Below, one piece after another: positions 2,809 to 43,573 of a stretch of DNA of 64,000 nucleotides. A model generated the notes under the pieces. The model did no database searches and had not been told where the DNA came from. It saw only the letters and a list, made by a program, of their open reading frames with translations. The position numbers were made by a program, and so were the translations under genes. Numbering within the stretch: the stretch's first letter is position 1; each line of letters opens with the position of its first letter. Source of the DNA: a virus; the IMG/VR virus record IMGVR_UViG_3300043449_002450, positions 1 through 64,000 of that record, one strand, 5' to 3'.

Positions 2809-3174
2809 ATGCGGGTCACAGGCAGACAGATCAGGCAGATCATCAGAGAGGAGCTGGGTCGCTCGCTTCGCGAGGGCTTCTGGGGGGACGACCCGCCTGA
2901 GGAGGGAAGCGGCTACCAGCATCTGTCGGCCGAGTCGCCGATCCTCGATCTCACAGACGGACCGGTGAGGATGCAGTGGGTCAACGAGATGCTCGAGCAC
3001 CTCAGAAGCTTCCCACCCTACATGCTTCCCATGCTGACCCAGGACTTCGAGAAGATGCTGGCGGGACGCCCTGTCGGCGTAGACGTCGCCAACATGTATC
3101 GCAGCAAGGGCGGCACCGTCTTCCTCTCCCGACGCTCGGTGGAAGCGCTTCTCAGCGCGCTGCAGGGAGGCTGA
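2809..3174 (+). CDS. Candidate internal head protein with capsid-targeting-like N-terminus, 121 aa
   Basis: I place the start at ATG 2809 (CTAGGAG upstream), which gives MRVTGRQIRQIIREEL at the N-terminus. This basic amphipathic helix ends in IIRE, matching the (I/L)xE cleavage rule of the T4 prohead protease (established for T4). The rest is an acidic linker, then an alpha/beta segment with no recognised family. The gene overlaps nothing and is followed 2 bases later by another gene with the same type of N-terminus. Packaging into the head is inferred. Confidence 0.6.
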   Translation: MRVTGRQIRQIIREELGRSLREGFWGDDPPEEGSGYQHLSAESPILDLTDGPVRMQWVNEMLEHLRSFPPYMLPMLTQDFEKMLAGRPVGVDVANMYRSKGGTVFLSRRSVEALLSALQGG

Positions 3175-3176
3175 TC

Positions 3177-3467
3177 GTGACACGACAGACGCTAAGGTCC
3201 CTCATCCACCGCATCATACGTGAGAGCTGGGACGTCCCGCCGTCTGGGATGGGCGCGAGGGTGAGACGCCTGGGACGGACCGGCGCGCTGGGTGAGAAGA
3301 TGGTGTCCCTGAACGTCACCCTTCGCGGTCTCTACATCGACGCCCTGGACGCTCACGAGAGCGGGGACAGAGAGACGTACGAGCAGATCATGGGACACAT
3401 CGGCGAGGTCGAGTGGCAGCTAGCAGACCTCCAGATGCAGCACGACGCGGTGCACGACGATACGTAG
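3177..3467 (+). CDS. Candidate internal head protein, capsid-targeting-like N-terminus, 96 aa
   Basis: A GTG start at 3177, two bases after the previous stop, gives MTRQTLRSLIHRIIRESW, another copy of the basic helix ending IIRE. The remainder (about 80 residues) includes a helical segment LRGLYIDALDAHESGDRETYEQIMGH-like region that resembles a short helical hairpin. No ATG start gives this N-terminus, so the recurrence of the motif decides the start. Function beyond the possible targeting peptide is unknown. Confidence 0.55.
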   Translation: MTRQTLRSLIHRIIRESWDVPPSGMGARVRRLGRTGALGEKMVSLNVTLRGLYIDALDAHESGDRETYEQIMGHIGEVEWQLADLQMQHDAVHDDT

Positions 3468-3477
3468 ACGCTAGGAG
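3459..3477 (+). promoter_or_regulatory. Late-promoter-like octamer GATACGTA with RBS
   Basis: GATACGTA (3459-3466) overlaps the end of the upstream gene and ends 20 nt before ATG 3486, followed by GCTAGGAG as at 2783. Identity of octamer, spacing and RBS context with 2781-2801 is the main evidence. Confidence 0.45.
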
Positions 3478-3485
3478 TCTACGCA

Positions 3486-4925
3486 ATGAAGATCACCAAG
3501 AGAGAGCTTCGTCGCCTGCTGGGCGAGGCGGTGTTAGAGAAGGGATGGGAGTCGTGGGACGACTGGCAGAATCCCGGTGCCTACGCGCCCGGGACGAAGC
3601 CTGTCACCCGCGCCGCTGCCGAGGAGGAGGTCGAGTTCGCTCCCAGCGGTCGTGTTGTGGATCCCAGCCGTGAGGAGATGTGGGGCTTCGACGAGGAGCC
3701 CGACTACGATGAGATGTACGTGGGTCCCGTCCCGACGTCAGCGCTCGTCAAGCGCGTCGTGCCGAACGAGTACGACCTCGAGTTCGCCGAGGAGTTCGGC
3801 GGCGGCGAGGAAGACTATGAGGAATACGATGAAGAGACTCTCTACGAGGCGAAGGACGCAGCCAAGAAGACGCGTCCAGACGGCTACACGGATCTTCCCG
3901 CCTTCATGACGATCGGCAAGCAGTCGCCCACGAAGTATAGCGGCTACGGCGCGCAGCTGGGACACGGCGTCATAGACGATCCCGCAGTCGTGGATCCGCT
4001 GGGTGACGACATCGACGCGGGCGCGCTGCGTCAGGTGAATCGTCTCATGCAGCGCGGCGAGGACAAGAAGAAGGACAAGAAGAAGCTCAAGGAGAGTGTG
4101 ATGAGCGTGACACGGAACGACATACGGCGCCTGGTGAACGAGGCGCTAGACGAGATGAGCATGATGGGTGTCCCGGGTGGGATGCGTCGGCAGCGACCCG
4201 GCATGTGCCTCTACGTCACCTACGGCGGCGGCGTCTTCTACTTCGTCGCGCCCTGTCCCCGTCCGGGAGCCAGTGAGGAGGAAGCTGCAGAAGCTGAGGA
4301 TGCTGCGGTAGAGATGGGAAGAGAAGTCACCTCTGAGCTCGACCCAGAGGGTCGGGGCATGGCCAACGCGTTTGATCTCTACTCGTGGCTGCAGGACCAC
4401 GACGAGATCACCCACGTCCACGACTTCGAGTCTGTGGGCGGCACAGTGCCGAAGAAGACGTACATGATCCAGGTTCGAGAAGTCGGCCAGGAGGAGGGTC
4501 TCTTCCCGCCCGATGACGTGGTCAACGAGGGAGCGTTCCCCGAGGAGCTGGAGGGCGTCTACGGTGCAGCGCCACCCGAGGACTACGAGGAAGACATGGG
4601 ATACGGGGACGAGGACGAATACAGCTACGGTGACGATCCCGATGAGTTCCTCGACCTCTCAGGCGGCGAGATCATGCGACGCATGTATGATCGCGGTGAC
4701 TTCGATCAGCCATACGAAGACGACATCCCCCCAGGCGCGGCAGACGTCGCCCTTCGGATGGGACGCGGCTACAGGACAGACGAGGGTGACTTCGACCCAG
4801 ATGTCGGCTACATCGACGACCCGAAGTCTGCCCGCCACGGTAAGCCCATGAAGCGTCGGAGCGCAGATGACGAGCCCCTCAACGAGGCACGCTGGGCGAA
4901 GCTGGCCGGCATCCTGAAGGGCTGA
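3486..4925 (+). CDS. Acidic protein with two capsid-targeting-like motifs, possible polyprotein, 479 aa
   Basis: The N-terminus MKITKRELRRLLGEA carries the basic helix ending LLGE. A second complete copy starts at Met206 (MSVTRNDIRRLVNEAL), directly after a Lys-rich linker ending LKES. Between and after the motifs the protein is very rich in Asp, Glu and Tyr, with a small folded segment at about 225-330 (CLYVTYGGGVFYF). The C-terminus EARWAKLAGILKG resembles that of the 6929 gene. The two motifs and the LKE/LVNE sites would allow a prohead protease to cut it into two mature proteins. Enzyme activity is not apparent. Confidence 0.6.
   Translation: MKITKRELRRLLGEAVLEKGWESWDDWQNPGAYAPGTKPVTRAAAEEEVEFAPSGRVVDPSREEMWGFDEEPDYDEMYVGPVPTSALVKRVVPNEYDLEFAEEFGGGEEDYEEYDEETLYEAKDAAKKTRPDGYTDLPAFMTIGKQSPTKYSGYGAQLGHGVIDDPAVVDPLGDDIDAGALRQVNRLMQRGEDKKKDKKKLKESVMSVTRNDIRRLVNEALDEMSMMGVPGGMRRQRPGMCLYVTYGGGVFYFVAPCPRPGASEEEAAEAEDAAVEMGREVTSELDPEGRGMANAFDLYSWLQDHDEITHVHDFESVGGTVPKKTYMIQVREVGQEEGLFPPDDVVNEGAFPEELEGVYGAAPPEDYEEDMGYGDEDEYSYGDDPDEFLDLSGGEIMRRMYDRGDFDQPYEDDIPPGAADVALRMGRGYRTDEGDFDPDVGYIDDPKSARHGKPMKRRSADDEPLNEARWAKLAGILKG
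4089..4103 (+). promoter_or_regulatory. Internal ribosome binding site and in-frame start inside the 3486 gene
   Basis: AAGGAG (4089-4094) lies 6 nt before the in-frame ATG 4101, exactly where the second targeting-like motif begins. Translation from here would give a separate 274-residue protein ending at 4925. Either a nested start or the trace of two genes joined by loss of a stop codon would explain it. Confidence 0.45.
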
Positions 4926-4957
4926 CGGCCGCGCCCGCTGCAGGGCTATGCAGACAA

Positions 4958-4989
4958 GGGGCCACCAGGCAGGGATGCTGGGTGGCCCC
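4958..4989 (+). terminator. GC-rich hairpin after the 3486 gene
   Basis: GGGGCCACC (4958-4966) pairs perfectly with GGTGGCCCC (4981-4989) around a 14-base loop that can itself pair (AGGC/GCTG-like). There is no T-tract, so it may act as a pause, an RNA-stabilising 3' end or a Rho-type end rather than a standard intrinsic terminator. Confidence 0.4.
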
Positions 4990-5024
4990 GAGCCCTATCT
5001 GCGGCTTGCTGCCTGGGGAGCAGG

Positions 5025-5140
5025 GTAGGGGCGCCCCTAGCCCCCTATATGGTAGGGCGCCCGGGGCGCCCGCTCCGGGGGCACGCCCCGGGGCCTACAA
5101 GCCCACCGGCGCCCCCTGGAGGCCTGGAGGGGGCCTAGGT
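5025..5140. other. Noncoding palindrome-dense GC block at the composition boundary
   Basis: The gap 4926-5388 has no convincing gene. Its centre holds closely packed inverted repeats such as GGGCGCCCGGGGCGCCC and CCGGGGGCACGCCCCGGGG. To the left the genome is GC-rich; to the right it is AT-richer and poly-T/A runs begin. It could be a recombination junction, a structured RNA or a replication-associated site. None of these is proven. Confidence 0.35.
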
Positions 5141-5148
5141 CTCCGCGC

Positions 5149-5178
5149 ACTTCCCGGGAACTTTCGATCACTTTACCT
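5149..5178 (+). repeat. Intergenic palindromic element, copy 1
   Basis: ACTTCCCGGGAAC followed by TTTCGATCACTTTACC. It is the most diverged downstream flank of four copies (others at 5315, 5910 and 7793). The 10-base palindrome TTCCCGGGAA is intact. It lies in the noncoding gap before the 5389 gene. Confidence 0.5.
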
Positions 5179-5314
5179 ACCTCCCCGCATTCACTGCAGC
5201 GACCCCGTCCCTCCCGATGACCCCGAAGTGCTCCCCATCACCCGAGAGCTGTGGACATCCTTTTCCCGAGAGCAAAATCTGCACCGAGAGATCTCCGTAA
5301 TGACCCATTTTCCC

Positions 5315-5350
5315 AAAAAACTTCCCGGGAATTTTTGACGACTTTTAACC
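5315..5350 (+). repeat. Intergenic palindromic element, copy 2
   Basis: AAAAAACTTCCCGGGAA is followed by TTTTTGACGACTTTTAACC. The palindrome plus A and T flanks form a longer imperfect dyad. It lies 40 nt upstream of the promoter-like octamer of the 5389 gene, so it could act as an upstream operator or as the end of the previous unit. Confidence 0.55.
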
Positions 5351-5360
5351 TTTCTGTTAC

Positions 5361-5383
5361 AGCATATTTAGTGTCTAGAGGCG
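5361..5383 (+). promoter_or_regulatory. Late-promoter-like octamer CATATTTA
   Basis: CATATTTA (5363-5370) ends 19 nt before ATG 5389 and is followed by CTAGAGG. The same ATATTTAG core precedes the 6929 gene at the same distance. Confidence 0.45.
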
Positions 5384-5388
5384 TTGAC

Positions 5389-5907
5389 ATGAAGATCACA
5401 CAACATCATCTTCGACAGTTGATTCGAGAGATGCTGGACACCTCTGTCTCCGATGAGCTAGCTACTCTCGTGCAGGGCGACCAGCAGCTTAGGAAAGAGT
5501 GGGAGAATGCTGTCAATGCGGAGGGCGGCTTCAAAGTGCTGCGGCACGGGACACCGAGGTGGGATGCAGTCCGATCGGAGTTCATGCGTGCACACGGCAC
5601 AACAGATGACGACATGTTCGGCGACAAGTCCCGTGCCGCGCAGATCCTCTCCCTTCCTGATCGCCTGGACTGGGACGGCATGACCGAGGATGACTGGCAC
5701 AACATCGCCCTGCTCACACAGCATATGGACGGAGCACCCGCCTTCCAGAAGCGGATGCTCACCATCTTCCGGAAGTGGCGCGGTGAAGACAGCAGCCAGT
5801 ATCAATATCTCCACGACCGGATCTCTTGCCGAGAGACGGGGACGCAGCTGTTCGGGACCCAAGACGCGGGCACGAATTACTCCAAGTGCAAGTGGGTTCG
5901 AGATTAG
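5389..5907 (+). CDS. Candidate internal head protein with capsid-targeting-like N-terminus, 172 aa
   Basis: Starting at ATG 5389 the protein begins MKITQHHLRQLIREML, the shared basic helix ending LIRE. A longer upstream frame exists but would bury this motif and lacks a ribosome site. The body (about residues 20-172) is soluble and mixed helical, with several Trp-Asp phrases (LDWDGMTEDDWHN) and no recognised family. It is bracketed by two copies of the TTCCCGGGAA element (5315 and 5910), as if it were a self-contained cassette. Confidence 0.6.
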   Translation: MKITQHHLRQLIREMLDTSVSDELATLVQGDQQLRKEWENAVNAEGGFKVLRHGTPRWDAVRSEFMRAHGTTDDDMFGDKSRAAQILSLPDRLDWDGMTEDDWHNIALLTQHMDGAPAFQKRMLTIFRKWRGEDSSQYQYLHDRISCRETGTQLFGTQDAGTNYSKCKWVRD

Positions 5908-5909
5908 GC

Positions 5910-5944
5910 AAAAACTTCCCGGGAAAAATTTGTGACTTTTGACT
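5910..5944 (+). repeat. Intergenic palindromic element, copy 3
   Basis: AAAACTTCCCGGGAAAAATT then TGTGACTTTTGAC, beginning 3 bases after the stop codon at 5907. The palindrome is identical to copies 1 and 2; the T-rich downstream part is shortened. Confidence 0.55.
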
Positions 5945-5958
5945 TTTATGGGCGAAAT

Positions 5959-5980
5959 AAAATAAATAATTTCGAGAGAG
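5959..5980 (+). promoter_or_regulatory. Late-promoter-like octamer AATAAATA
   Basis: AATAAATA (5961-5968) differs from the T4 late octamer TATAAATA in one base and ends 18 nt before ATG 5986, with a GAGAGAG ribosome site between. It is the closest match in the window. Confidence 0.55.
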
Positions 5981-5985
5981 TTTTC

Positions 5986-6801
5986 ATGTCCAATCATTAC
6001 CTTGTAGCTTGCGCCGTTTTTAAGAATGAGACATGGGGCCTGCGCGAGTGGATCGAGCATCACATGCACCACGGAGTTGATCACATCTATCTTGTCAATG
6101 ATGACAGCGATGATGATTACATGTCGATATTGAGTCCCTATATCGATCGGGGTCATGTTACTCTCATTCAGAATGAGATCAAGGAGAGATATACAGGCAG
6201 GCAAGTTGACATCAATAACAGATATTTCTTGCCTCTGGCACGGACGGCAAAGTGGATCACCAATATCGACATCGATGAGTATCTTTATAGCCCTAAAGAG
6301 CAAGACATCAAGCGAATTCTTAAAAATTACGAGGATTACGCAGTCTTGAATGTGAATTGGACGTGGATGACGTCAAATGGTCATGTTAGACAGCCTTCTG
6401 GAATTGTTAGATCATTCACTAAGCGGTCTGATTATAAGACGCTGGTCAATTTTAATGTCGCGGGTCGGAGTCGTGAGACTGTGTGGTTGGGTGGATACAA
6501 GTGCGTAGCGAACACAAGTTTTGACATTAGATCTTTCAATATTCACAATGTGGCGACGACATCGGGTGATCAAAAAAACGCGTCTGTTGAATCGAACCCA
6601 GCTGATCCCGATCTTCTGGTCAATCATTATCAGCTTCAATCCCGTGAGTATTGGGAGAAAGTGAAGATGCGTCGCGGTGATGTGAATTTCTGGTTCAAGG
6701 GTGATGATCGAACATTTGAGGAATTTGACACGATGGATTTGGGTGATATCGATGATTTTAGGCTAAGAGATCAAAATACTTTTTTTGAAGCAATGCTTTG
6801 A
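5986..6801 (+). CDS. GT92/GT2-like glycosyltransferase, 271 aa
   Basis: The N-terminus CAVFKNETWGLREWIEHH, followed by GVDHIYLVNDDSDDD, is the hallmark of the DUF23/GT92-like branch of GT-A glycosyltransferases, which act on 'anchor' acceptor sugars. A metal-binding-type NIDIDEYL follows at about residues 92-99. The enzyme would transfer a sugar from a nucleotide donor in the cytoplasm; acceptor unknown. I start it at ATG 5986 because of the GAGAGAG site. It stands apart from the main sugar cluster (27-46 kb), surrounded by targeting-motif genes, and is more AT-rich than the gene before it. Confidence 0.75.
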   Translation: MSNHYLVACAVFKNETWGLREWIEHHMHHGVDHIYLVNDDSDDDYMSILSPYIDRGHVTLIQNEIKERYTGRQVDINNRYFLPLARTAKWITNIDIDEYLYSPKEQDIKRILKNYEDYAVLNVNWTWMTSNGHVRQPSGIVRSFTKRSDYKTLVNFNVAGRSRETVWLGGYKCVANTSFDIRSFNIHNVATTSGDQKNASVESNPADPDLLVNHYQLQSREYWEKVKMRRGDVNFWFKGDDRTFEEFDTMDLGDIDDFRLRDQNTFFEAML

Positions 6802-6898
6802 TTTTAGCCTTCACTGGGCAGGCCAATGACCTGTGGAGTTCCGTGTCTGCGCCGTAAAATTTTTCTCTAGTTGGGCACGTGCGTCACATGATCGGCTG

Positions 6899-6923
6899 TG
6901 GTATATTTAGTTGCATGGAGAGA
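6899..6923 (+). promoter_or_regulatory. Late-promoter-like octamer TATATTTA
   Basis: GTGGTATATTTAG contains TATATTTA (6902-6909), ending 20 nt before ATG 6929, with ATGGAGAG as ribosome site. The GTGG prefix matches the leaders at 178, 398 and 2178. Confidence 0.5.
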
Positions 6924-6928
6924 CGAGA

Positions 6929-7744
6929 ATGAGTGTGACCAGGAGCCGTATTAGGGAGATCATCAAGGAGGAAGTTGCACGGGGCCTCCAGGAGGCGATG
7001 TCTCCTGAGGAGAAGTTGATGCGTCGGCGGGAGCAGGCTCGGGCATCTCGAGCCCGTGCCGAGGATCAGCGCAGGGAGGCTGAATATGCTCGTCGTTCGC
7101 GTCATGACGTCGAGCAGCTCGGATACATCTCCAAGGGTCCTAGCCTACAACCAGGCGGGCCTCTCCCTGGCTTGATGTCCTATGATCCCACGATGTTTAG
7201 CAAGGCATATATCGATCGCCGTTTCGCTGCAGAAATGGGCATCTCCACGCCTGAGGATGTGATTGCTGCTGTTGAAGGGGGTCGGGCAAAGGTGTGGTCC
7301 GCAGGAATGATTGGGGGCGCGCAGCCTCCCTCCATGACGGTTGTGCCTGCTGATGCAAGGGCTGGCTACAATGAGACCACAGGTGCCAAGGGCTATCCCT
7401 ATGTTTACACGCGAAATGCGAAAGATGAGGCAGGTCGTCACACGCATGATCTGGAAGTGGTGATCCAGCGTGGAATTGGCTATGGTGGTTACGGTCCTAC
7501 CACCTTTAGCAATGATTCCCGTATGGGTCTGACAGCTTCGCGCCTCGCGGGTCGTATTAGCGAGGTTGTTCCTATTGACCTCTTGGGCGGTGGCAAGGGC
7601 GAGGTTGTTGATGTTGTGTCCGGAGAGAGTGGTGAGCCTATGATGGGTGCAGAGATGCCAATGGGTGATATGAATGGCGACGAGCCACTCACCGAGAGCA
7701 CCACACTTACGCGATGGAATTTGCTCGCAGGTATCAAGCGGTAG
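6929..7744 (+). CDS. Candidate internal head protein with capsid-targeting-like N-terminus, 271 aa
   Basis: The N-terminus MSVTRSRIREIIKEEV carries the shared basic helix ending IIKE. It is followed by a strongly basic helical stretch (RRREQARASRARAEDQRRE, about 27-55) that could bind DNA, then a Gly-rich globular part. The C-terminus (PLTEST...RWNLLAGIKR) resembles that of the 3486 gene (PLNEARWAKLAGI), and both have an LxE-type site just before it. The start is set by GAGAGACGAGA upstream. No catalytic motif is seen. Confidence 0.6.
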   Translation: MSVTRSRIREIIKEEVARGLQEAMSPEEKLMRRREQARASRARAEDQRREAEYARRSRHDVEQLGYISKGPSLQPGGPLPGLMSYDPTMFSKAYIDRRFAAEMGISTPEDVIAAVEGGRAKVWSAGMIGGAQPPSMTVVPADARAGYNETTGAKGYPYVYTRNAKDEAGRHTHDLEVVIQRGIGYGGYGPTTFSNDSRMGLTASRLAGRISEVVPIDLLGGGKGEVVDVVSGESGEPMMGAEMPMGDMNGDEPLTESTTLTRWNLLAGIKR

Positions 7745-7792
7745 AAGCTTAAAAATCTGCACCCCAAAATTTTTCTCTCGGGTCGTTTTGAT

Positions 7793-7830
7793 GAAAAACT
7801 TCTCGGGAGAATTTTTTGACTTTTTAACCC
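7793..7830 (+). repeat. Intergenic palindromic element, copy 4 (variant)
   Basis: AAAAACTTCTCGGGAGAATT followed by TTTTGACTTTTTAACC. The core has changed but its arms TTCTC/GAGAA remain complementary, which argues for selection on a dyad or hairpin. It lies 50 bases after the stop at 7744. A second shared string, AAAATTTTTCTCT, precedes it (7767) and also occurs at 6856. Confidence 0.55.
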
Positions 7831-7858
7831 TTGCCGTCACACGCTGTATGGATTTTTT

Positions 7859-7987
7859 GTGCGAAGTGCCCTCACCATCTTCATCATTGATACTCTTGTC
7901 AAGGCGTCATTTATCATCACTTTCTACCTCCTGTTCTCCTTCATTCGGATCTCATTGCTGCCTGAGATCTATAGATATTTCCAGTAG
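7859..7987 (+). CDS. Possible small membrane peptide, 42 aa
   Basis: Within the 257-base gap 7745-8001, a GTG-started frame encodes a very hydrophobic peptide (SALTIFIIDTLVKASFIITF, then YLLFSFIRISLLPEIYRYFQ) ending at TAG 7985-7987. There is no visible ribosome site, and the frame stays open upstream, so this may be chance. It is listed because the hydrophobic pattern is unusually consistent. Confidence 0.2.
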   Translation: MRSALTIFIIDTLVKASFIITFYLLFSFIRISLLPEIYRYFQ

Positions 7988-7996
7988 ATTCAGGAG
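7968..7996 (+). promoter_or_regulatory. Late-promoter-like octamer TATAGATA
   Basis: TATAGATA (7970-7977) is one base from the T4 late consensus and lies 25 nt before the GTG at 8002, with TTCAGGAGC as ribosome site. Confidence 0.5.
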
Positions 7997-8001
7997 CATT
8001 T

Positions 8002-8442
8002 GTGTCAGTCAAGCTACTTCGTGAGACCATCCAGACAATCTTGACAGAGGCCAGCTCATTAACAGACTTTGAGATCTCTGTCGAGCCTCCGAACACCATC
8101 AATGTTCGCAACAAGGTGACGGGTGGGAGCGGATCTTCTAGAAAGATTCAAGTCGAAGCAGAGATTGATGCGATATTGGGAACAACGACGGCGTTGCTCA
8201 AGGTCGACGAGCTTAGGATCAAGGCATTTAATCCTACAGCACCTGATGGCCAGCCTGTCCTGTCTGTCTATGTCAAGGTGAGCAAGATCGGCGTCTCTAA
8301 AGAAAGTGACGCTGATATCATAAACAAGTCTGCGTTGTTGGGCCTAGCTAACGCAGTCATCAACGGAACATCTTATACTGCGCCGTGGTCAGCAAAAAAG
8401 AACGGCATGCGTGTTCGTCTTATTGTCAACGGCAAGTCATGA
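8002..8442 (+). CDS. Candidate internal head protein, capsid-targeting-like N-terminus, 146 aa
   Basis: The GTG start at 8002 (CAGGAG upstream) gives MSVKLLRETIQTILTEASS, a helix ending ILTE. The body is mostly beta strand with repeated V/I-rich segments and has a basic end (KKNGMRVRLIVNGKS). The family is unknown. The stop codon overlaps the start of the next gene (ATGA), so the two targeting-motif genes are translated as a pair and may form a complex. Confidence 0.55.
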   Translation: MSVKLLRETIQTILTEASSLTDFEISVEPPNTINVRNKVTGGSGSSRKIQVEAEIDAILGTTTALLKVDELRIKAFNPTAPDGQPVLSVYVKVSKIGVSKESDADIINKSALLGLANAVINGTSYTAPWSAKKNGMRVRLIVNGKS

Positions 8443-9545
8443 ACGCGATAAGAGGCTACATCAGGCAGGTCCTTGCTGAGGATTTGCGAGGATTTCTCAA
8501 CAAGACATGGGACATCTCTTACAACGTCGGCGGACAAAATGCCTCCTCGCTAGATCGTCCTGAAAATGCTGATATCAAGGATAAAGCTCGCGCGGTCAAG
8601 AGCGCCTGGTGGGAGGAGGCAGACCAGACTTTCTTTGCAAGTCTGACAAAAGTGCACTGGCTTTCCGATTCTGGGACATATAATCTGAGGCGAACAAATG
8701 AGGTTCTGAATAATGTCCTGTCGCTGGCGGCACAGGGATCTGAGCTTCCCACGACAGGTTACACTCCAGGCACTGTCCAAAATTTTGCCTGGGGTCAATG
8801 GGGCATTATTGTGGGAGGAGAAAAGTGTGTCGCCACCTTTGCCGCCAACTCCATGGAGGACGTTGTCTCAGGATATGTGACACGCGATGCCCTGGCTTTG
8901 TCTTTCTTGAAGCGGGGCAGAAATCCTCTTCCAAGGCGGCCTCTCAAATTCGACCCACAGCAAGGTGCGGGAGCCATGAGCAAGGATGAGGCAGTTGAGC
9001 TGCTCCTCCAGAATCCCACTTACCTGCTAGATGCTGACTCTTGGCGCGAGCCAACTCGTGGACGCACAAATGAGATCATTGTCAAGCATTGGAAGATTTT
9101 AGGCATCATCGTTGCTAATGAGGCGCAGATCACAGGGCTGATAGATGCAGCAAAAGGTGTGACTAAGGGAATATACAATCCTGCAACACGATCTTACATG
9201 CGTGTCAATGCTAGAGACATTCCTGATTGGAAGAATGATGCGATGAACTTGATCCAGACAATACTGGATTCTGGGTTGAGGGTCTTTGCTGCACCAGATA
9301 CAGAGAAGCCCGTTGATTTTAGAGTGTTGGTTCGAACTGCCCTAGGCGTTGAGGCTGCTGATACACAGGATGTCGATGTGGCTACAAGATTTGCGCCACC
9401 GGAGCCACCCAAGATGGTGTTACCTCCCGTCAAAGAGCCGCCTAGGCCCACAAGGTCTGCGCCGGAGCCTGTGCCTGCAGAGCAACCTGAGCAAAACTTG
9501 AAGCCTGAAGCGGGATTCTCCTGGCTTTTTGATCCTGTCAAGTAG
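8439..9545 (+). CDS. Candidate internal head protein, capsid-targeting-like N-terminus, 368 aa
   Basis: ATG 8439 overlaps the preceding stop and gives MNAIRGYIRQVLAEDL, a helix ending VLAE. A globular region follows to about residue 305, with WGQWGIIVGGEKCVATFAAN and other Trp/Gly-rich strands. After it comes a Pro-rich linker (about 315-350) and a hydrophobic tail FSWLFDPVK. A packaged enzyme such as T4 Alt would be the analogy, but I do not see the ADP-ribosyltransferase residues, so no activity is called. Confidence 0.55.
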   Translation: MNAIRGYIRQVLAEDLRGFLNKTWDISYNVGGQNASSLDRPENADIKDKARAVKSAWWEEADQTFFASLTKVHWLSDSGTYNLRRTNEVLNNVLSLAAQGSELPTTGYTPGTVQNFAWGQWGIIVGGEKCVATFAANSMEDVVSGYVTRDALALSFLKRGRNPLPRRPLKFDPQQGAGAMSKDEAVELLLQNPTYLLDADSWREPTRGRTNEIIVKHWKILGIIVANEAQITGLIDAAKGVTKGIYNPATRSYMRVNARDIPDWKNDAMNLIQTILDSGLRVFAAPDTEKPVDFRVLVRTALGVEAADTQDVDVATRFAPPEPPKMVLPPVKEPPRPTRSAPEPVPAEQPEQNLKPEAGFSWLFDPVK

Positions 9546-9557
9546 ATAATTAGCATC

Positions 9558-9980
9558 ATGAAACCTAAAAACGCTCTTCGAATGTTGATAAGAAGTGAGA
9601 TAGCTGATATCTTGGCAGAAGCAAAGAAGAAATCTGTATTGCCACCTTTGCCTCCAATAGCATCGACGCCAGAATTTGATACGGAGATGCGTGACATATC
9701 AACCATGCATGATCTTGGTTACGATATCGAGAGCATGCTAGGAACCGATATATTTGGATCGGGTGAGTATCCAGAAGGTGAGCAACTTTCTAGGAAGTCA
9801 AGGTATAGTGATCCAGAGGATCTCTATCGCAAGCCTTCTGCACAATGGATGGCACAGCATTTAGCAGCCAGCTCTGATCCCAGGAAGCGACAGGTAGGAA
9901 TGAATCTTCTTAAGAAAATGGAAGATATGATAGGTCATCAAAGATACACGAGACTTGGGTCTAGTGACGATGACTATTAA
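9558..9980 (+). CDS. Candidate internal head protein, capsid-targeting-like N-terminus, 140 aa
   Basis: The N-terminus MKPKNALRMLIRSEIADILAEAKK contains a longer version of the basic helix with LIRSE and ILAE, either of which fits the (I/L)xE rule. The mature part is low in hydrophobics, with a Pro stretch (VLPPLPPI) and an acidic end (GSSDDDY). There is no good ribosome site before ATG 9558, and it lies 12 bases after the 8439 gene, so it is probably translated by coupling. It overlaps the stop of the opposite-strand peptidase gene by 4 bases. Confidence 0.5.
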   Translation: MKPKNALRMLIRSEIADILAEAKKKSVLPPLPPIASTPEFDTEMRDISTMHDLGYDIESMLGTDIFGSGEYPEGEQLSRKSRYSDPEDLYRKPSAQWMAQHLAASSDPRKRQVGMNLLKKMEDMIGHQRYTRLGSSDDDY

Positions 9981-10354
9981 TAAGAGATGAACAGCTTGAC
10001 TATTTGGCCGGCGACAGCGTTGGCCTGGTCCTCAAAGAATCCACCAACATCTTTGATCTTAGTCTTGCCAAAAAAGTCATGCTTGCCCTGCTGCATGTGA
10101 ACCATCTCATGTGCAATTGATCTGCACACATCAAAAACATGGCGTGTATCAGTGTATATCACGACATGATTATTTGATGGATTGAAATAAGCTGTTGTTT
10201 TTATTCCATGTTTTTCTCTATCACCCGTTAGAATAACACAGTAGTCTTGATCTTGCAAGTGAAGAAAGTCTTCTGCAAAGACACAGAACTGTGATATCTT
10301 TGAGATAGAATCTCTATCTTGACCGCATGTTTTTTCGGCAATTAGCTTCTTCAT
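9977..10354 (-). CDS. Small HExxH zinc metallopeptidase-like protein, 125 aa
   Basis: HEMVH (His82, Glu83, His86) followed by a downstream Glu108 in FEDQANAVAG gives a complete gluzincin zinc site, so it could be an active peptidase of minimal size. The N-terminal half has strands ending in a YFNPSNNHVVIYT segment typical of the beta-edge before the active helix. It is on the minus strand, back to back with the yeaH-spoVR-prkA operon and tail to tail with the 9558 gene. The substrate is unknown; cell-wall, host protein or virion processing are all open. Confidence 0.6.
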   Translation of the reverse strand: MKKLIAEKTCGQDRDSISKISQFCVFAEDFLHLQDQDYCVILTGDREKHGIKTTAYFNPSNNHVVIYTDTRHVFDVCRSIAHEMVHMQQGKHDFFGKTKIKDVGGFFEDQANAVAGQIVKLFISY

Positions 10355-10419: not shown

Positions 10420-11610
10420 TTGTCAATCTTCAGAGAGCATAAGACTTCTGCAGACAGGTCTGCATCGGACCGGTCTCGTCACAAGAAGAAGATCGAAAAA
10501 GCGATCCGTGAAGGGATCACCGACATCATTGCCGAGGAATCGATCATTGGCCAAGATGGTAAGAAGCGCATCAAAATTCCTGTTAGAGGAATCAAAGAGT
10601 GGCAGTTCATCTATGGAGACAATGAGGGACAGAAGAAAGTTGGTTCTGCTCCAGGGCACGATCTAGAGGAAGGACAGGTAGTCAAGAAAGGCAAGGAGAA
10701 GACAAAGGGAAGCGGTGGAAAAGCAGGCAAGGACAAGGGCGAAGAGACATATGAGGTCGAGATATCACTCGATGAGTTGGCTGAGTATCTCTTTGATTCA
10801 CTTAACCTACCTGATCTAGACAAGAAGAAGTTTAAGAACATGCTTAGTTCCAAGCCAAAGAGGCACGGGACTAGGACAAATGGTATCCGCCCTAGGCTTG
10901 ATAAGAAGCTATCTGCAATTGAACGCATAAAGAGAAAAGCGGCAGCTAGAAGCGCAGGAAATATCGAGATCAATCCAGACAATGGTGAGGAGGTATTTCC
11001 TTTCCATGAGAATGATCTGCGATACCATTTTATCAAGAATAAGCCTAAAGAGGCCACAAACGCTGTTGTCTTCTTCATGATGGATGTCTCTGGCTCCATG
11101 ACCAAAGATATAAAATACGTCGCAAGATCGTTCTTTTTCATACTGTATCAATTCCTTCGATACAAATATGAGAACCTTGAGATTGTCTTCATATCGCACA
11201 CAACAGAAGCATCTGAAGTTGATGAGGATTCTTTCTTTAAGAGAATAGAATCGGGTGGGACATATGTCAGTTCTGCTCCAAATCTTGCTCTTGAGATCGC
11301 CAACGAAAGGTATCACCCATCATCTTGGAACGTCTACGCGTTCCATTGCACTGATGGTGATAACTGGGGCGAAGACAACCTAAAGGCTCAAAAAGCTTTT
11401 AGGGAGCTTGCAGACATCTGCCAGATGGTTGGGTATTTTGAGATATTGCTTGGAACATCAAAGGGAGAATGGAATGAGGATGTCGATAAGACGCTCTGGG
11501 GTCACCTTCTAAAGATGAAACATGATAACTTTAAGATGAACATCCTCAAGAGTGTAACAGACATCTGGCCGACGTTCAATAAGCTTTTTGGAGGATTACC
11601 TGATGTCTGA
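10420..11610 (+). CDS. yeaH: YeaH/YhbH (DUF444) family protein with vWA domain, 396 aa
   Basis: The N-terminal signature (REHKTSADRSASDRSRHKKK, then IAEESIIGQDGKKRIKIPVRG) and the C-terminal von Willebrand A domain with MIDAS motif DVSGS (Asp222, Ser224, Ser226) identify the DUF444 family. In bacteria these proteins are encoded next to PrkA kinase and act in stationary-phase, stress or sporulation responses; the biochemical role is not settled. A Lys/Gly-rich linker (about 87-112) separates the regions. Length is close to the bacterial family. I use TTG 10420 because AGGAG lies 5 bases upstream and the family N-terminus starts there. It overlaps the SpoVR gene by 8 bases. Confidence 0.85.
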   Translation: MSIFREHKTSADRSASDRSRHKKKIEKAIREGITDIIAEESIIGQDGKKRIKIPVRGIKEWQFIYGDNEGQKKVGSAPGHDLEEGQVVKKGKEKTKGSGGKAGKDKGEETYEVEISLDELAEYLFDSLNLPDLDKKKFKNMLSSKPKRHGTRTNGIRPRLDKKLSAIERIKRKAAARSAGNIEINPDNGEEVFPFHENDLRYHFIKNKPKEATNAVVFFMMDVSGSMTKDIKYVARSFFFILYQFLRYKYENLEIVFISHTTEASEVDEDSFFKRIESGGTYVSSAPNLALEIANERYHPSSWNVYAFHCTDGDNWGEDNLKAQKAFRELADICQMVGYFEILLGTSKGEWNEDVDKTLWGHLLKMKHDNFKMNILKSVTDIWPTFNKLFGGLPDV

Positions 11611-12907
11611 GTGGTCTATGGAAGATCTGAATGCTTGGGACCAGAAGATCTGTAAGATCGCAAAAGAGTGCGGATTAGACTGGTATGAGATCGCGTATGA
11701 GACATGTGATTACTTTGAGATGATCGGTAACATGTCATACCACGGTATGCCCAGCCATTTTTCTCACTGGTCATACGGAAAGTCTTTCGAGCGGACTCAC
11801 TTCATGTATAATGCGGGTCAAGAAGGCCTGCCTTATGAGCTGATTATTAACTCGAATCCGTCTATTGCCTATTTGATGGTTGAGAACCCACTATACTTGC
11901 AAGTTCTTATCATGGCGCATTGCGTCGGTCATTCTGACTTCTTTAAGAATAATAGGACATTTAAAGATACTGACGCTGATATGATCACTTCAAAATTTAG
12001 AAGTGCCAGAGCTCGAATACAGAGCTATATTGAAGATCCTTCAATTGGAATCGACAAAGTTGAAAAACTGATTGATGCCTGCCACAGCATTCAATACCAG
12101 ATAGATCGAAGAGGGAGATTTAGAAGATCTGAGAGGGAACTGGTAGATTCTTTCATGCAGGATGAGAAGAATACAAAAAAGAATAAAGATCTGGAGTCTA
12201 TTAAGTTTCCAATAGAACCTGAGTATGATGTTTTACTATTTCTAGTAGAGAATTGTAAAAGACTAGCTCCCTGGCAGAAAGATGTAATAGAGATTATTAG
12301 ATCAGAATCGCTCTATTTCATGCCACAGATTAGAACGAAGATAATGAATGAGGGATGGGCCAGCTTCTGGCACTACAGGATACTCCAAAAGCTAGATCTA
12401 CCTGATGAGATGCATATTCCATTTTTAAGAATTCATAATCTAGTTCTTAGACCCTGGGGAGGATCAATTAATCCTTATCATCTTGGGTTTGAAATCTTTA
12501 AGAAGATAGAGGAAGAGAGAGGTCTTGAGGAATGTTTCATAGCAAGAGAGGTTCACAATGATGAATCTTTTATCATGCAATATCTTGATAGAGAGATCTG
12601 TGAAAGACTTAACCTGTTTACTTACTCCCTAAAATCAAAGAGTGGGGACTGGACGATAGACGATCTATCTGACGAAGATGGCTGGAAGGAAGTAAGAGGA
12701 GCTCTCTTAGCAAATGTTGCTGGGAATGGAATACCGACCATATACGTCGATGAGGTCCAGAAGGATACTTTAGTATTAAGACATGAACATGATGGTCGTG
12801 ATCTTGAGCTTGACTACGCTGAGAATTGTGTGAGAAACATCAAAGAAATTTGGGGCGGACCTGTTAAGCTCTTTACTAAGATAGAGGATGAAGATTTTGA
12901 AATCTAA
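11603..12907 (+). CDS. spoVR: SpoVR family protein, 434 aa
   Basis: Family hallmarks are present: LPYELIINSNPSIAYLMVEN, then AHCVGHSDFFKNN (about residues 110-122) and NEGWASFWHYRIL near the middle. Bacterial SpoVR (E. coli YcgB) is co-encoded with PrkA and YeaH and affects cortex formation in sporulating Bacillus; its molecular activity is unknown. Conserved His/Glu residues would suit a metal site. ATG 11603 is chosen because GGAGGA stands 7 bases upstream and the start overlaps the yeaH stop (coupled translation). The protein is a little shorter than the usual family length of around 500 residues. Confidence 0.85.
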   Translation: MSEWSMEDLNAWDQKICKIAKECGLDWYEIAYETCDYFEMIGNMSYHGMPSHFSHWSYGKSFERTHFMYNAGQEGLPYELIINSNPSIAYLMVENPLYLQVLIMAHCVGHSDFFKNNRTFKDTDADMITSKFRSARARIQSYIEDPSIGIDKVEKLIDACHSIQYQIDRRGRFRRSERELVDSFMQDEKNTKKNKDLESIKFPIEPEYDVLLFLVENCKRLAPWQKDVIEIIRSESLYFMPQIRTKIMNEGWASFWHYRILQKLDLPDEMHIPFLRIHNLVLRPWGGSINPYHLGFEIFKKIEEERGLEECFIAREVHNDESFIMQYLDREICERLNLFTYSLKSKSGDWTIDDLSDEDGWKEVRGALLANVAGNGIPTIYVDEVQKDTLVLRHEHDGRDLELDYAENCVRNIKEIWGGPVKLFTKIEDEDFEI

Positions 12908-12923
12908 CAATAGGAGTCAACCG

Positions 12924-14849
12924 ATGGATTTTCTTGAACTTATTAAGAAGCAGCGCGAAGAAGGGCAGAAGGAATCCTGGCGTGGGACCCTAATTGATTA
13001 TCTCGCTCTTGTTAAAAATGATCCAACTATCCCAAAACTTGCGGCAAGTCGACTCTATGATTCTATAGCAAACTATGGTGTCAGCTCAATGTCTGATGCT
13101 GACCCAAGGTGTAGGAAGCTGTTTGATGGGGATAAGCTAAAGATCTATGACTATTTTAAGGACGATTTTTATGGTCATGAAAGAGTCATTGCCAAGATCA
13201 TGAGATTTCTCAGAGCAGCATCACTAAAGGGCGAAGAGAGTCGTCAGGTTCTTTTACTGATGGGTCCTGTCGGGTCAGGTAAATCAGCGCTGGCTGACGC
13301 TCTAAAGAAGGCGCTTGAGAAGGGCGCAGAACCTGTCTATCATCTTGAGGGCTGCCCAGTTCGAGAGGAGCCACTTCATCTTCTTCCAAGATCACTCAGA
13401 GATGACTTCTCTAAGATGTTAGGTGCACATATTGAGGGAGATCTGTGCCCAGTGTGTCGATACAGGCTCATGAATGAGTTCAATGGTGAGTATGAGAAAT
13501 TCCCAATTGTTAGGACGTCATTCTCTCAGCGTGCTCGGCGCGGTATTGCCGTGGTTCCTCCCATGGATGCCAACTCTCAGGACGTCTCGGCACTCATCGG
13601 CTCAGAGGACATCTCCAAGCTGGACAAATACAGCGAGTCTGACCCACGTGTTCTCAATCTTGACGGTGCTTTCAACGTGGGCAACCGAGGAACTGTAGAG
13701 TTTGTTGAGATCTTCAAGAACGAGATCGAGTTTCTCCACACAATCATCACAGCAACCCAGGAAAAGAATGTTCCAACGCCTGGTAAGAATGGAATGCTCT
13801 ACTTCGATGGTGTCATCATCTCACACTGCAATGAATCAGAGTGGAATCGCTTCAAGTCTGAGCACACTAACGAGGCCATTCTCGACCGTGTCGTGAAGAT
13901 TGAGGTCCCATATGTCCTGGAGCTCACACAGGAGATGAAGATCTATGAGAAGATGATTCGTAAATCAGACTTCAAGGCGCACCTTGCACCTCACACAATC
14001 AAGGTTGCTGCCATGTTCTCAGTGATGAGCCGTCTAAAGCCTTCACAGAAATGTGACCCGCTCACCAAGATGAAGATCTATGACGGGCAGGAAGTTGTTG
14101 AGAAGGGCCGGACCAAGAAGGTTGATATCAAGGACCTACGTGAGGAGGTCCGTCACGAGGGCATGGATGGAATCTCTACCCGATTCATCACCAAGGCTAT
14201 TGACTCGGCGCTAACTGACTCTGACAAGAGCTTTATCACACCAATGAGAGTTGTTGATGCACTTATCAAGCAGGTGAAGGAGCAGGTTGTAGACGAGGAG
14301 AAGAAGAAGGTCTACCTTGAGCTTCTCCAAAAGGTCATTCGAGAGGAATATCTTAAGATTCTCGAGGGTGAGATTGCCAAGGCATTCGTCACCGCCTATG
14401 AGGAGCAGGCTCAGAGCCTCTTCGACAACTATCTTGATAATGCTGAGGCATTTACGACCAAGCAAAAGATGAAGGATCGTGTCACAAATGAAGAGCGTGA
14501 TCCAGATGAGAAGTTCCTGCGTGCCATCGAAGAGCAGATTGGTATTAGCGGATCTGCTAAGGATGGCTTTAGAGCAGATGTGACTTCATACATGTTCGCA
14601 AAGGTCCGTCGCGGCCAGAAGGTTGACTACAAGGCATACGAGCCACTCAAGGAGGCAATTGAGAGCTATCTGATTGCATCCGTCAAGGATCTTGCGAGGA
14701 TTGTAACAAAGTCCAAGAGCAGGGACAACGAGCAGCAAAAGAAATATTCTGACATGGTTATGACACTTGTCAATGATTATGGATACACAGCAGATTCTGC
14801 AGAAGAGATCATCACATTTGCTGCCAATAATCTTTGGAGAGATTCTTGA
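12924..14849 (+). CDS. prkA: PrkA-type AAA+ serine protein kinase (YeaG homologue), 641 aa
   Basis: The N-terminal AAA+ part has Walker A GPVGSGKS at about residues 114-121. Family-specific stretches follow: HLEGCPVREEPLHLLP, a Cys-rich turn GDLCPVCRYRL, LIGSEDISKL and YFDGVIISHCNESEW. The C-terminal PrkA domain follows with normal total length (about 640). PrkA proteins are reported as ATP-dependent Ser/Thr kinases and, for Bacillus, as AAA+ ATPases with protease-like activity. All parts look intact, so it may be functional in the infected cell. Start ATG 12924 has TAGGAG upstream. The middle is richer in GC than the flanking genes, which may point to later acquisition. Confidence 0.9.
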   Translation: MDFLELIKKQREEGQKESWRGTLIDYLALVKNDPTIPKLAASRLYDSIANYGVSSMSDADPRCRKLFDGDKLKIYDYFKDDFYGHERVIAKIMRFLRAASLKGEESRQVLLLMGPVGSGKSALADALKKALEKGAEPVYHLEGCPVREEPLHLLPRSLRDDFSKMLGAHIEGDLCPVCRYRLMNEFNGEYEKFPIVRTSFSQRARRGIAVVPPMDANSQDVSALIGSEDISKLDKYSESDPRVLNLDGAFNVGNRGTVEFVEIFKNEIEFLHTIITATQEKNVPTPGKNGMLYFDGVIISHCNESEWNRFKSEHTNEAILDRVVKIEVPYVLELTQEMKIYEKMIRKSDFKAHLAPHTIKVAAMFSVMSRLKPSQKCDPLTKMKIYDGQEVVEKGRTKKVDIKDLREEVRHEGMDGISTRFITKAIDSALTDSDKSFITPMRVVDALIKQVKEQVVDEEKKKVYLELLQKVIREEYLKILEGEIAKAFVTAYEEQAQSLFDNYLDNAEAFTTKQKMKDRVTNEERDPDEKFLRAIEEQIGISGSAKDGFRADVTSYMFAKVRRGQKVDYKAYEPLKEAIESYLIASVKDLARIVTKSKSRDNEQQKKYSDMVMTLVNDYGYTADSAEEIITFAANNLWRDS

Positions 14850-27451: not shown

Positions 27452-29281
27452 ATGACAAAGAATTGCATTTTCGTTGCTGACCTATTCACCGAAGACTACG
27501 TCGGAGGTGCAGAACTAACAACTGACGCGCTCATTAAGAAGTCGCCTTATCCAGTCATCAAGAAGCGGGCCCGAGAGGTTGACATCAACTTTATGTCTGA
27601 ACACAAAGATGACATGTGGGTATTTGGAAATTTTGCCTCTATTGACTTCAATTTGATACCGACGATTGTCGCTAATTTGAAGTATGTTGTCCTGGAATAT
27701 GATTATAAGTTCTGTCTATACAGATCGATCGAAAAGCACGAGAATGAGACAGGAAATCCTTGTGATTGCCATGACCAGCAGATTGGAAAGCTTGTTTCTG
27801 CATTTTACCACGGCGCCGATCATGTCTTTTGGATGTCTTCTGAGCAGCGTGAGAGATATAATGATAGGTTTCCATTTTTGAGAGATCGTCCGTCAACAGT
27901 TCTATCATCTGTCTTCGATGACACATTCTTTGACGCCGTTAAGAATCTCAAGAATGATGAGCCTAGAAGCGGCTGGATTGTTCTCGGGTCAAAGTCTTGG
28001 ATTAAGGGAGCAGATGCTGCTATCAAGTGGTGTCAAGATAACGATAAGTCGTATGAGGTGATATGGGATCTCGCCTACGACCAGATGCTCAATCGCCTAT
28101 CAACTACTGAAGGGTTTGTTTACCTTCCGCTTGGAGGTGACACGTGTCCAAGGATGGTCATCGAGGCCAAGCTGCTTGGATGCCAGCTTCACTTGAACGA
28201 TAACGTCCAGCATGCCGCCGAAGAATGGTTCCAGAGCTCCCCAGATGACGTCTGTGATTACTTGATGGGTAGGCCTGATGTGTTTTGGGGGCAGGTAAAT
28301 AATATCATCCAGAATGAGCCGACGCTGTCTGGTTACACAACAACAAAAGACTGTATTTCTCAAGGTTATCCGTGGGAACTTACAATTAGCTCAATGCTTG
28401 GATTCTGTGATGAGGTTGTCGTTGTTGACGGAGGCTCCACTGATGGCACATGGGAGAAGCTACAAGAGATGTCTTCTTCTAATGACAAGCTAATCATTAA
28501 GCAGATTAAGAGAGACTGGAATCACAAGAGATTTGCTGTCTTTGATGGAGAGCAAAAAGCAGCTGCAAGAGCTCTGTGCACTAAAGACTTTTGTTGGCAA
28601 ATGGATGCTGATGAGCTTGTGTATGAGGTAGATTACGGCAAGATACGCGATCTATGCAAGAAATTCCCTAAGAATTTTGACCTAATCAGCCTGCCTGTTG
28701 TTGAGTATTGGGGCTCAAAGAAGAAAGTGAGGATGGATATAAATCCCTGGAAGTGGCGCCTAAGCAGAAACTTGCCGCACATCACACATGGCATTCCTGC
28801 TAATCTTAGACTTCAAGATCAAAATGGCGACACATATGCTCGACAAGGCACAGACGGATGCGATTTTATACACAACCAGACAGGTCATGTAATTCCATGT
28901 GCGAGTTTCTATGGTGAGGATGCGCATCGAGCAAGAATGACAGCGCTGTCTGGTCATGTTGAAGCACAGCACGCCTATACTGAGTGGTTCAAGAATGTTG
29001 TCCAAATTCTGCCTTCTGTCCGGCATCACTCATGGCTCGATATTGAGCGAAAGATCAAGACATATCGAAATTATTGGCAGAGGCACTGGGAGAGCCTTTA
29101 TGACATCCGTCAGGAGGACACACCAGAGAACAACATGTTCTTTGACAAGCCCTGGAGTGAGGTCACTGATGATGATATTAGAGAACTTGCATCTCGCCTA
29201 TCAAGCGAAATGGGCGGACACATCTTTCACACAAAGATTAATTGGTCGAGAAAGACACCACACATCGAAGGTGTTGAGTGA
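27452..29281 (+). CDS. Fused glycosyltransferase: GT-B-like half plus GT2 half, 609 aa
   Basis: Residues 1 to about 290 look like a GT-B/GT4-type domain (VADLFTEDYVGGAELTTDAL at the start, SGWIVLGSKSWIKGADAA in the middle). From about 295 a GT2 domain follows (GYPWELTISSMLGFCDEVVV, then VDGGSTDGTW) with the metal-binding DAD at Asp385/Asp387. Two successive sugar transfers from one polypeptide are plausible, as in chain-synthesising enzymes; donor and acceptor are unknown. No clear Shine-Dalgarno precedes ATG 27452. It is the first gene of the cluster and its stop overlaps the next start. Confidence 0.75.
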   Translation: MTKNCIFVADLFTEDYVGGAELTTDALIKKSPYPVIKKRAREVDINFMSEHKDDMWVFGNFASIDFNLIPTIVANLKYVVLEYDYKFCLYRSIEKHENETGNPCDCHDQQIGKLVSAFYHGADHVFWMSSEQRERYNDRFPFLRDRPSTVLSSVFDDTFFDAVKNLKNDEPRSGWIVLGSKSWIKGADAAIKWCQDNDKSYEVIWDLAYDQMLNRLSTTEGFVYLPLGGDTCPRMVIEAKLLGCQLHLNDNVQHAAEEWFQSSPDDVCDYLMGRPDVFWGQVNNIIQNEPTLSGYTTTKDCISQGYPWELTISSMLGFCDEVVVVDGGSTDGTWEKLQEMSSSNDKLIIKQIKRDWNHKRFAVFDGEQKAAARALCTKDFCWQMDADELVYEVDYGKIRDLCKKFPKNFDLISLPVVEYWGSKKKVRMDINPWKWRLSRNLPHITHGIPANLRLQDQNGDTYARQGTDGCDFIHNQTGHVIPCASFYGEDAHRARMTALSGHVEAQHAYTEWFKNVVQILPSVRHHSWLDIERKIKTYRNYWQRHWESLYDIRQEDTPENNMFFDKPWSEVTDDDIRELASRLSSEMGGHIFHTKINWSRKTPHIEGVE

Positions 29282-29973
29282 GAAAGATTTCTGTAATCAT
29301 ACCTGCTTATAATGCAGCATCAACTTTACGTGAAGCTGCTGAGAGCGCTCTCAAGCAAGGTGATGCTATAGACGAAGTTATCGTAATCGTGAATGGATGC
29401 ACAGATGACACAATGAGCATTGCTCTTGGTCTTAGAGATGAGGACGCTCGCGTCGCAGTTGTTGAGTCTGTTAAAGGAAAGGTTCCTGCTAGGAATAAGG
29501 GGTTTGAGGTAGCTAAGAATCCCATCATAGCATTGCTTGATGCTGATGACATCTGGCACGATGGAAAGATTGAAAAGCAGCTAGCGGCCTTTAGCGACGA
29601 TATTGACATACTTGGCACCCAGATCACTACGACAGATAAGAAAGGCTTTCCTTTGCCCGAACAAGTCACACATCCGTGTGACGGCTTAACGATTGTGAAT
29701 CATCTTCTGAATGGCAGGAATTGCTTAGCAAACTCTAGCGTCATCTTTAGAAAGTCAATCCTAGATTTTGTTGGAACATATGAGGATTGCTTTCCATTTT
29801 GTGAAGATTACCACTTCTGGCTCAGAGCTATAAAATTTGCAAGGATGAAGAACCTACCTGAGCGTCTCGTAACTTATCGATTTGAGCACAGTCCTGCTTA
29901 TGATCCTCAAATTGCCGTAGCATTATCAAGCTTCTACAGGTCGCTGTATGCTTACACAGGCGTGATTAAATGA
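29278..29973 (+). CDS. GT2 family glycosyltransferase, 231 aa
   Basis: A canonical GT-A fold is seen: ISVIIPAYNAASTLREAAES at the N-terminus, the nucleotide-binding VNGCTDDT loop and the metal-binding LLDADD (Asp88-Asp91). Length is short but complete for the catalytic domain. A GTG start at 29278 overlaps the preceding stop (GTGA). It would add one sugar in the cytoplasm; specificity cannot be deduced. Confidence 0.85.
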   Translation: MRKISVIIPAYNAASTLREAAESALKQGDAIDEVIVIVNGCTDDTMSIALGLRDEDARVAVVESVKGKVPARNKGFEVAKNPIIALLDADDIWHDGKIEKQLAAFSDDIDILGTQITTTDKKGFPLPEQVTHPCDGLTIVNHLLNGRNCLANSSVIFRKSILDFVGTYEDCFPFCEDYHFWLRAIKFARMKNLPERLVTYRFEHSPAYDPQIAVALSSFYRSLYAYTGVIK

Positions 29974-32354: not shown

Positions 32355-32367
32355 GAGAAATTGTCAG

Positions 32368-35218: not shown

Positions 35219-35260
35219 TAAACTAGGTCAAGCAAATCTCTATAATGATAAGAGAGAAAA

Positions 35261-36256: not shown

Positions 36257-36257
36257 C

Positions 36258-37013: not shown

Positions 37014-37043
37014 CTACAACGCACACATTCTAAAGGAAAGAAG

Positions 37044-38588: not shown

Positions 38589-38594
38589 AAGTTA

Positions 38595-40715: not shown

Positions 40716-40772
40716 TTGTTTATTATATTGATGCTTACTTTTGAGTAAAATTGACATGAAAGGACACACTAG

Positions 40773-42715: not shown

Positions 42716-42730
42716 GATGTATAATTTATC

Positions 42731-43540: not shown

Positions 43541-43545
43541 TTTTC

Positions 43546-43570
43546 ACCTGTGCTATTGTTTAGCACAGGT
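43546..43570 (+). promoter_or_regulatory. Perfect 10-bp hairpin abutting the start of the 43574 gene
   Basis: ACCTGTGCTA (43546-43555), loop TTGTT, TAGCACAGGT (43561-43570), followed after 3 bases by ATG 43574. The only ribosome-site-like bases (AGGT) lie in the 3' arm, so the stem should block initiation unless melted. There is no T-tract, so a terminator is unlikely. A binding site for a dimeric regulator is the other reading. Confidence 0.55.
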
Positions 43571-43573
43571 ACC

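Follow-up and report, generated by a model that had tools for sequence, protein, structure and literature searches.

A basic N-terminal peptide on unrelated proteins of a T4-type environmental phage as a predicted capsid-targeting propeptide

In a T4-type phage record of 176,181 bases, 27 proteins with unrelated bodies bear a common N-terminal tag or a near variant of it. Eight of them lie in the window analysed here (bases 1-64000 of the record), 17 lie further along, and two more start with other N-terminal forms. We propose that this shared N-terminus is a capsid-targeting propeptide, the basic amphipathic helix of which would dock the protein on the core of the prohead while the head is being assembled. 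The S77 protease encoded at 83252-83860 would then cut after (I/L)-x-E and release the body inside the head before the DNA is packaged. As the tag would load proteins into the forming head and then be removed, delivery into the host together with the DNA is probably possible; this ejection of the freed bodies is the weakest and most distant step of the proposal. We assign a probability of about 0.8 to the reading as a T4-like system of capsid targeting and gp21-type cleavage with a longer, basic and widely reused tag.

Results

Tagged starts in the window

The original prediction had named eight gene starts (2809, 3177, 3486, 5389, 6929, 8002, 8439 and 9558) and one internal copy at 4101, and all of these are present. 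The 14-residue pattern given for them stands in part: 2809, 3486, 4101, 5389 and 6929 fit it closely, some of them one position off, whereas 3177, 8002, 8439 and 9558 match only a looser core of the form hydrophobic-(R/K/Q/H/A)-x-hydrophobic-hydrophobic-x-E. Most of the tagged starts are preceded by a Shine-Dalgarno-like sequence, which the start at 9558 lacks, and the start at 8439 overlaps the stop of the 8002 gene.

On the plus strand, the tag MRVTGRQIRQIIRE (2809..2850), with aggag upstream, opens a 121-aa protein (2809-3174). It is followed by MTRQTLRSLIHRIIRE (3177..3224), a looser fit with a GTG start behind ggagg, at the head of a 96-aa protein (3177-3467) for which the gene caller favoured a later start at 3249. 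The tag MKITKRELRRLLGE (3486..3527) begins an acidic protein of 479 aa (3486-4925), which ends behind PLNE in RWAKLAGILKG (4890..4922), the peptide of the scaffold C-terminus. The same protein contains the internal tag MSVTRNDIRRLVNE (4101..4142), preceded by LKE and AAGGAG. Because of this upstream AAGGAG, the internal copy could mark an internal translation start, internal protease sites or both. MKITQHHLRQLIRE (5389..5430) leads a 172-aa protein (5389-5907), whose body bears a faint, not significant resemblance to DUF6624 (E 0.19). MSVTRSRIREIIKE (6929..6970) leads a 271-aa protein (6929-7744) that also carries the scaffold C-terminus peptide, RWNLLAGIKR (7712..7741) behind PLTE, and whose residues 3-31 are weakly matched by phrog_2436 (E 0.01), a 50-position family of unknown function. 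The looser core occurs in MSVKLLRETIQTILTE (8002..8049; GTG start; 146-aa protein, 8002-8442) and MNAIRGYIRQVLAE (8439..8480; 368-aa protein, 8439-9545), and the weakest fit of all is MKPKNALRMLIRSEIADILAE (9558..9620; 140-aa protein, 9558-9980). On the minus strand, a 125-aa protein with a HEMVH motif (10354-9977) starts with MKKLIAE (10334..10354), tentatively a short T4-like form, with which the start MRKMIVEKSCAQDKDS of a protein adjoining a tagged array in the related genome G005 may be compared.

Other genes of the window include an adjacent trio at 10420-14849 of DUF444 (YeaH/YhbH type, 9e-110), SpoVR (4e-122) and PrkA kinase (8e-143), a neighbourhood that is also typical of bacterial stress and sporulation operons. 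A long stretch at 27452-45978 holds genes resembling those of glycosyltransferases and nucleotide-sugar enzymes, as judged by their N-terminal sequences only.

Tagged genes in the remainder of the record and their bodies

The remainder of the record was scanned as well, and the further copies that the original prediction had proposed to look for were found in number, extending the feature from the range of 2809-9630 first given for it up to the end of the record. In record coordinates, tagged genes start at 74688, 83862, 84410, 135215, 137082, 140045, 141131, 152280 (minus strand), 153229, 155655, 165347, 166497, 168162, 170013, 172917, 174583 and 175665, and other N-terminal forms were found at 142439 and 162806, the latter in an M23 peptidase. 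A weak match of phrog_1970 (50 positions, unknown function; E about 0.01) covers only the tag region of the 84410 protein. The record also encodes a phage GroEL-type chaperonin (144393-145985; Cpn60, 2.8e-65) and a phage sigma-70 type factor (147349-148089).

The bodies behind the tag had been described as unrelated, and a comparison of all 27 against each other gave a best E of about 0.04, with no detectable homology. Together with a Pfam search of 101 tagged proteins from relatives, in which six families only were found with a single member each, this led us to reject a common body domain. Domains recognized in relatives include AAA_33, HD_4, NT5C (nucleotidase) and pterin dehydratase. Most tagged proteins are without any family, and most bodies are orphans that are not kept from relative to relative. 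When viral contigs were searched with the 8439 protein, a single weak partial match was returned, and the 174583 protein returned none, too little to gauge the conservation of cargo. The 135215 protein (135215-135913) carries an iron/manganese superoxide dismutase C-terminal domain behind its tag (2.7e-17), with relatives in G001 and G006, and is a candidate for a virion-packaged oxidative-stress enzyme.

In the 74688 gene (74688-75020) the tag is a variant that ends in D instead of E (ILSDD, IIQDD) and is kept in the relatives of G001 and G005. In T4 IPIII, an Asp at the cleavage position stops processing and leaves targeting intact (PMC9026906); we therefore predict that the 74688 protein would be targeted and packaged but remain uncut. 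In the 174583 protein (174583-175668), YRG, SSS and EKEVI are spaced, by eye only, as the R-S-ExE motifs of the T4 Alt ADP-ribosyltransferase. An alignment with T4 Alt gave no support for such an assignment and the predicted structure has a pLDDT of 41, so that it remains a guess.

Prohead protease, head operon and capsid cleavage site

A gp21-like protease, which the original prediction called for, is encoded at 83252-83860. Its product matches Peptidase_S77 (1.1e-25) and phrog_207 head maturation protease (1e-52), and its His, Ser and Asp positions align with those of T4 gp21 (GECDHP, GISSRG and the Asp column). The head genes further include Portal_T4 (1.4e-80) and a Gp23 capsid protein (8.9e-78). 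Portal, protease, tagged core genes, scaffold and gp23 follow the T4 order when compared with the T4 record, and the space between protease and capsid gene holds the small tagged genes 83862 and 84410 as well as a 466-aa protein in the position of gp22. In 62 of 77 related loci the gene immediately behind the protease is a tagged core gene, and in 51 of the 77 a second such gene lies close by. With tagged core genes beside the protease across these loci, the prohead core appears to be the home of the tag. The capsid protein contains LRE61, which is invariant in seven related genomes (the present phage and six others) while the next residue varies. This site aligns with the T4 gp23 cleavage position LTE65 and has the (L/I)-R-E form found in the tag.

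The scaffold C-terminus as a second tag

The scaffold in the gp22 position ends in RWxxLAG(I/L)K, or nearly so, in all 65 loci inspected. Isolates show similar ends (RWQKLAGIIK in Flavobacterium phage immuto, RMKKLAGIVK in Microcystis phage Mel-JY01), and in RM378 the gene ahead of the capsid gene ends in ERIKRLAGL. Two proteins of the window, 3486 and 6929, carry such an end behind LNE and LTE, respectively, and five more non-scaffold proteins of relatives end with the RWxxLAG form. By placement, this form was found 20 times C-terminally, once N-terminally (in immuto, followed by ITE) and twice in the interior of two related nucleotidyltransferase-like proteins; a looser version opens the 142439 protein and related proteins of G001 and G006. 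We read this as cargo borrowing the tail of the scaffold as a second, interchangeable tag, which would have been copied onto the C-end of proteins such as 3486 and 6929. A looser scaffold-type tag would stand at the N-end of other cargo, and (I/L)-x-E would usually separate tag and body. A precedent is found in T4, where gp21 cuts Alt near each of its two ends (PMC9026906). The copied tail also suggests where such cargo would dock.

Both the operon context and the scaffold tail bear on a different interpretation, in which the tagged proteins are core or scaffold-like shape components of the prohead that are broken down or expelled ahead of DNA packaging and are not delivered to the host. Two tagged genes lie in the head operon beside the protease, the acidic 3486 protein has the scaffold peptide at its C-end, and the 142439 protein shares, by eye, a YEIDE segment with the scaffold. 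T4 offers a precedent in its core proteins gp22, gp67 and gp68, the first two of which are cleaved into fragments (PMC9026906). Against this interpretation, some tagged bodies carry enzyme domains such as superoxide dismutase, AAA_33, HD_4 and nucleotidase, most tagged bodies are orphans that differ between relatives, unlike core genes, and one relative, G008, has 41 tagged genes. Some of the enzymes behind tags in relatives (nucleotidase, AAA_33, HD_4) look ordinary and would be of doubtful value as injected proteins, which weighs against our own reading. Certain tagged genes may be conserved core components and not injected cargo, but as an account of the whole set we consider this interpretation unlikely.

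Statistics and occurrence of the tag in other genomes

The core form was found within residues 1-30 of 23 of 180 genes, compared with 2.0 expected from protein interiors (P about 4e-17), and 200 shuffles gave at most 7 such genes. The core regular expression was derived from the present genome and then applied unchanged to other phages, which are the fair tests because the expression was written after the present genome had been viewed. The N-terminal excess recurs in G008 (41 observed, 5.8 expected), G017 (26 and 2.8), G024 (13 and 2.0), G005 (13 and 1.4) and G014 (10 and 1.5), and is absent from T4 (5 and 2.9), cyanophage S-SKS1 (4 and 2.4) and RM378 (3 and 1.8). The tag helix is basic and amphipathic, with a mean moment of 0.96 vs 0.69 and a net charge of +1.1 vs +0.1. 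Glutamate occupies position 14 in 293 of 316 tags. It is also the predicted P1 residue at this position in 179 of 202 N-termini that were picked by residues 1-12 only and do not match the scan pattern, so that the glutamate was not selected for. In half of the 316 tags another E follows directly on the predicted P1 glutamate, which we count against our interpretation.

A DNA-level scan pattern encoding M(K/R)ITxxx-hydrophobic-R-x-hydrophobic-hydrophobic-R-E matched at least 120 stretches in IMG/VR, compared with none for the exact reversed pattern, and among the matches listed nearly all open a frame with a differing body. In G008, tandem arrays with near-identical starts occupy 47-58 kb and 282-292 kb. 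Bacterial and archaeal genomes (257 billion bases) contained 21 matching stretches. Convincing arrays there are confined to two bins, both with S77, that are probably phage contigs binned with bacteria; many of the other matches are very short or tag-like in pattern alone. A tblastn search of the named-phage collection with a 20-residue tag query found nothing, a query of this length being too short to be informative. Among isolates, immuto (Flavobacterium sp. LMO8) and Mel-JY01 bear related tags, but none was found here with the exact MKIT form. Four immuto proteins, one of them annotated as cobalamin adenosyltransferase, start with a third N-terminal form, MENFDLKKFLVENKLT.

Large contigs that had been chosen only by the tag DNA pattern contained S77 in 16 of 18 cases, and the two without it may be fragments because they lack portal and capsid matches too. 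Among random contigs of at least 40 kb, S77 was found in 1 of 22 (0 of 7 among those of at least 96 kb); the compared contigs are related, and the counts are therefore not independent events. This association, together with the tagged core genes next to the protease, the conserved glutamate, the matching capsid LRE site and the scaffold peptide on the same cargo proteins, makes it very improbable that the helix instead targets proteins to a membrane, to DNA or to a replication compartment and has a terminal I/L-x-E that only happens to look like a protease site, even though a basic amphipathic helix could bind membrane or nucleic acid and some tagged bodies resemble cytoplasmic enzymes.

Identical residues of the tag use the same codon at a frequency of 0.61, compared with 0.43 expected. 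As codon choice at these residues has drifted to a large extent, conservation is largely at the peptide level, and DNA-level repeats were rejected as an explanation. That the start is a functionless leftover of recombination or duplication, a 5' gene module spreading cargo genes, is thus hardly credible despite the near-identical starts in the G008 arrays and the somewhat raised codon identity, since the residues, and the glutamate specifically, have been retained.

Discussion

Every prediction of the head-packaging reading that genomes allow to be checked agrees with what was found: the protease, the further tag copies, the association with S77, the P1 glutamate and the capsid LRE. Docking, packaging and cleavage of the tagged proteins are what we infer from these features.

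The closest known counterpart is T4, where a capsid targeting sequence on the internal proteins is removed by gp21 cleavage after (L/I)xE (PMC9026906). As in IPI, IPII, IPIII and Alt, a short N-terminal peptide ending hydrophobic-hydrophobic-x-E is found on unrelated proteins; the protease family and the head gene order are the same, and diverse cargo is possible. The present tag is, however, longer (14-21 residues) and basic, has the form M(K/R)ITxxQLRxII(R/K)E, occurs on tens of genes, compared with a few in T4, and is accompanied by a second, scaffold-derived tag at either end. The T4 peptides MKTYQEFIAE and MELITELFDE were read directly from the T4 record, and the form shared with MKTYQEFIAE is limited to the last residues, no clear sequence homology being seen. 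As T4 is without the present tag form, homology with T4 is no basis for the proposed docking. The T4 vertex protein gp24 begins with MAKINELLRE, likewise a short helix ending in LLRE, and its N-terminal propeptide is removed by gp21 (PMC5694885), but gp24 is a single shell protein and not cargo.

phiKZ and SPN3US package many proteins with their DNA and process them with a gp21-related protease (PMC5694885), which resembles the many predicted packaged proteins and the protease described here. Their propeptides are mostly longer than 100 residues and are cut after A/S/G-x-E, and a small shared helix tag is not reported in that work (PMC5694885). The first 30 residues of P1 DarB are enough for a reporter to be packaged in the capsid (PMC9024508), but this signal belongs to a different phage and protease and is not shared by many proteins. 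In the open-access literature no description of the tag was found, subscription papers being mostly outside the search, nor was virion proteomics for any tag carrier.

Overall, we consider it fairly probable that T4-type environmental phages of a large and mostly uncultured group load their heads by a general code of two signals. One would be an N-terminal helix ending in (I/L)xE and the other the RWxxLAG(I/L)K end of the scaffold, copied to either end of a protein, and with them single phages would package 20 to 40 fast-changing orphans. Phage proteins delivered with the DNA are the first to act in infection and are small, fast-evolving and unannotated; those of T4 include anti-restriction proteins and host-takeover enzymes. 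If the tag is a loading signal, hundreds of orphan genes of environmental phages would become predicted virion cargo at once, and a testable protein-packaging code as well as new packaging tags would be at hand. If the two-signal code is true, virion-delivered proteins would become predictable from sequence alone.
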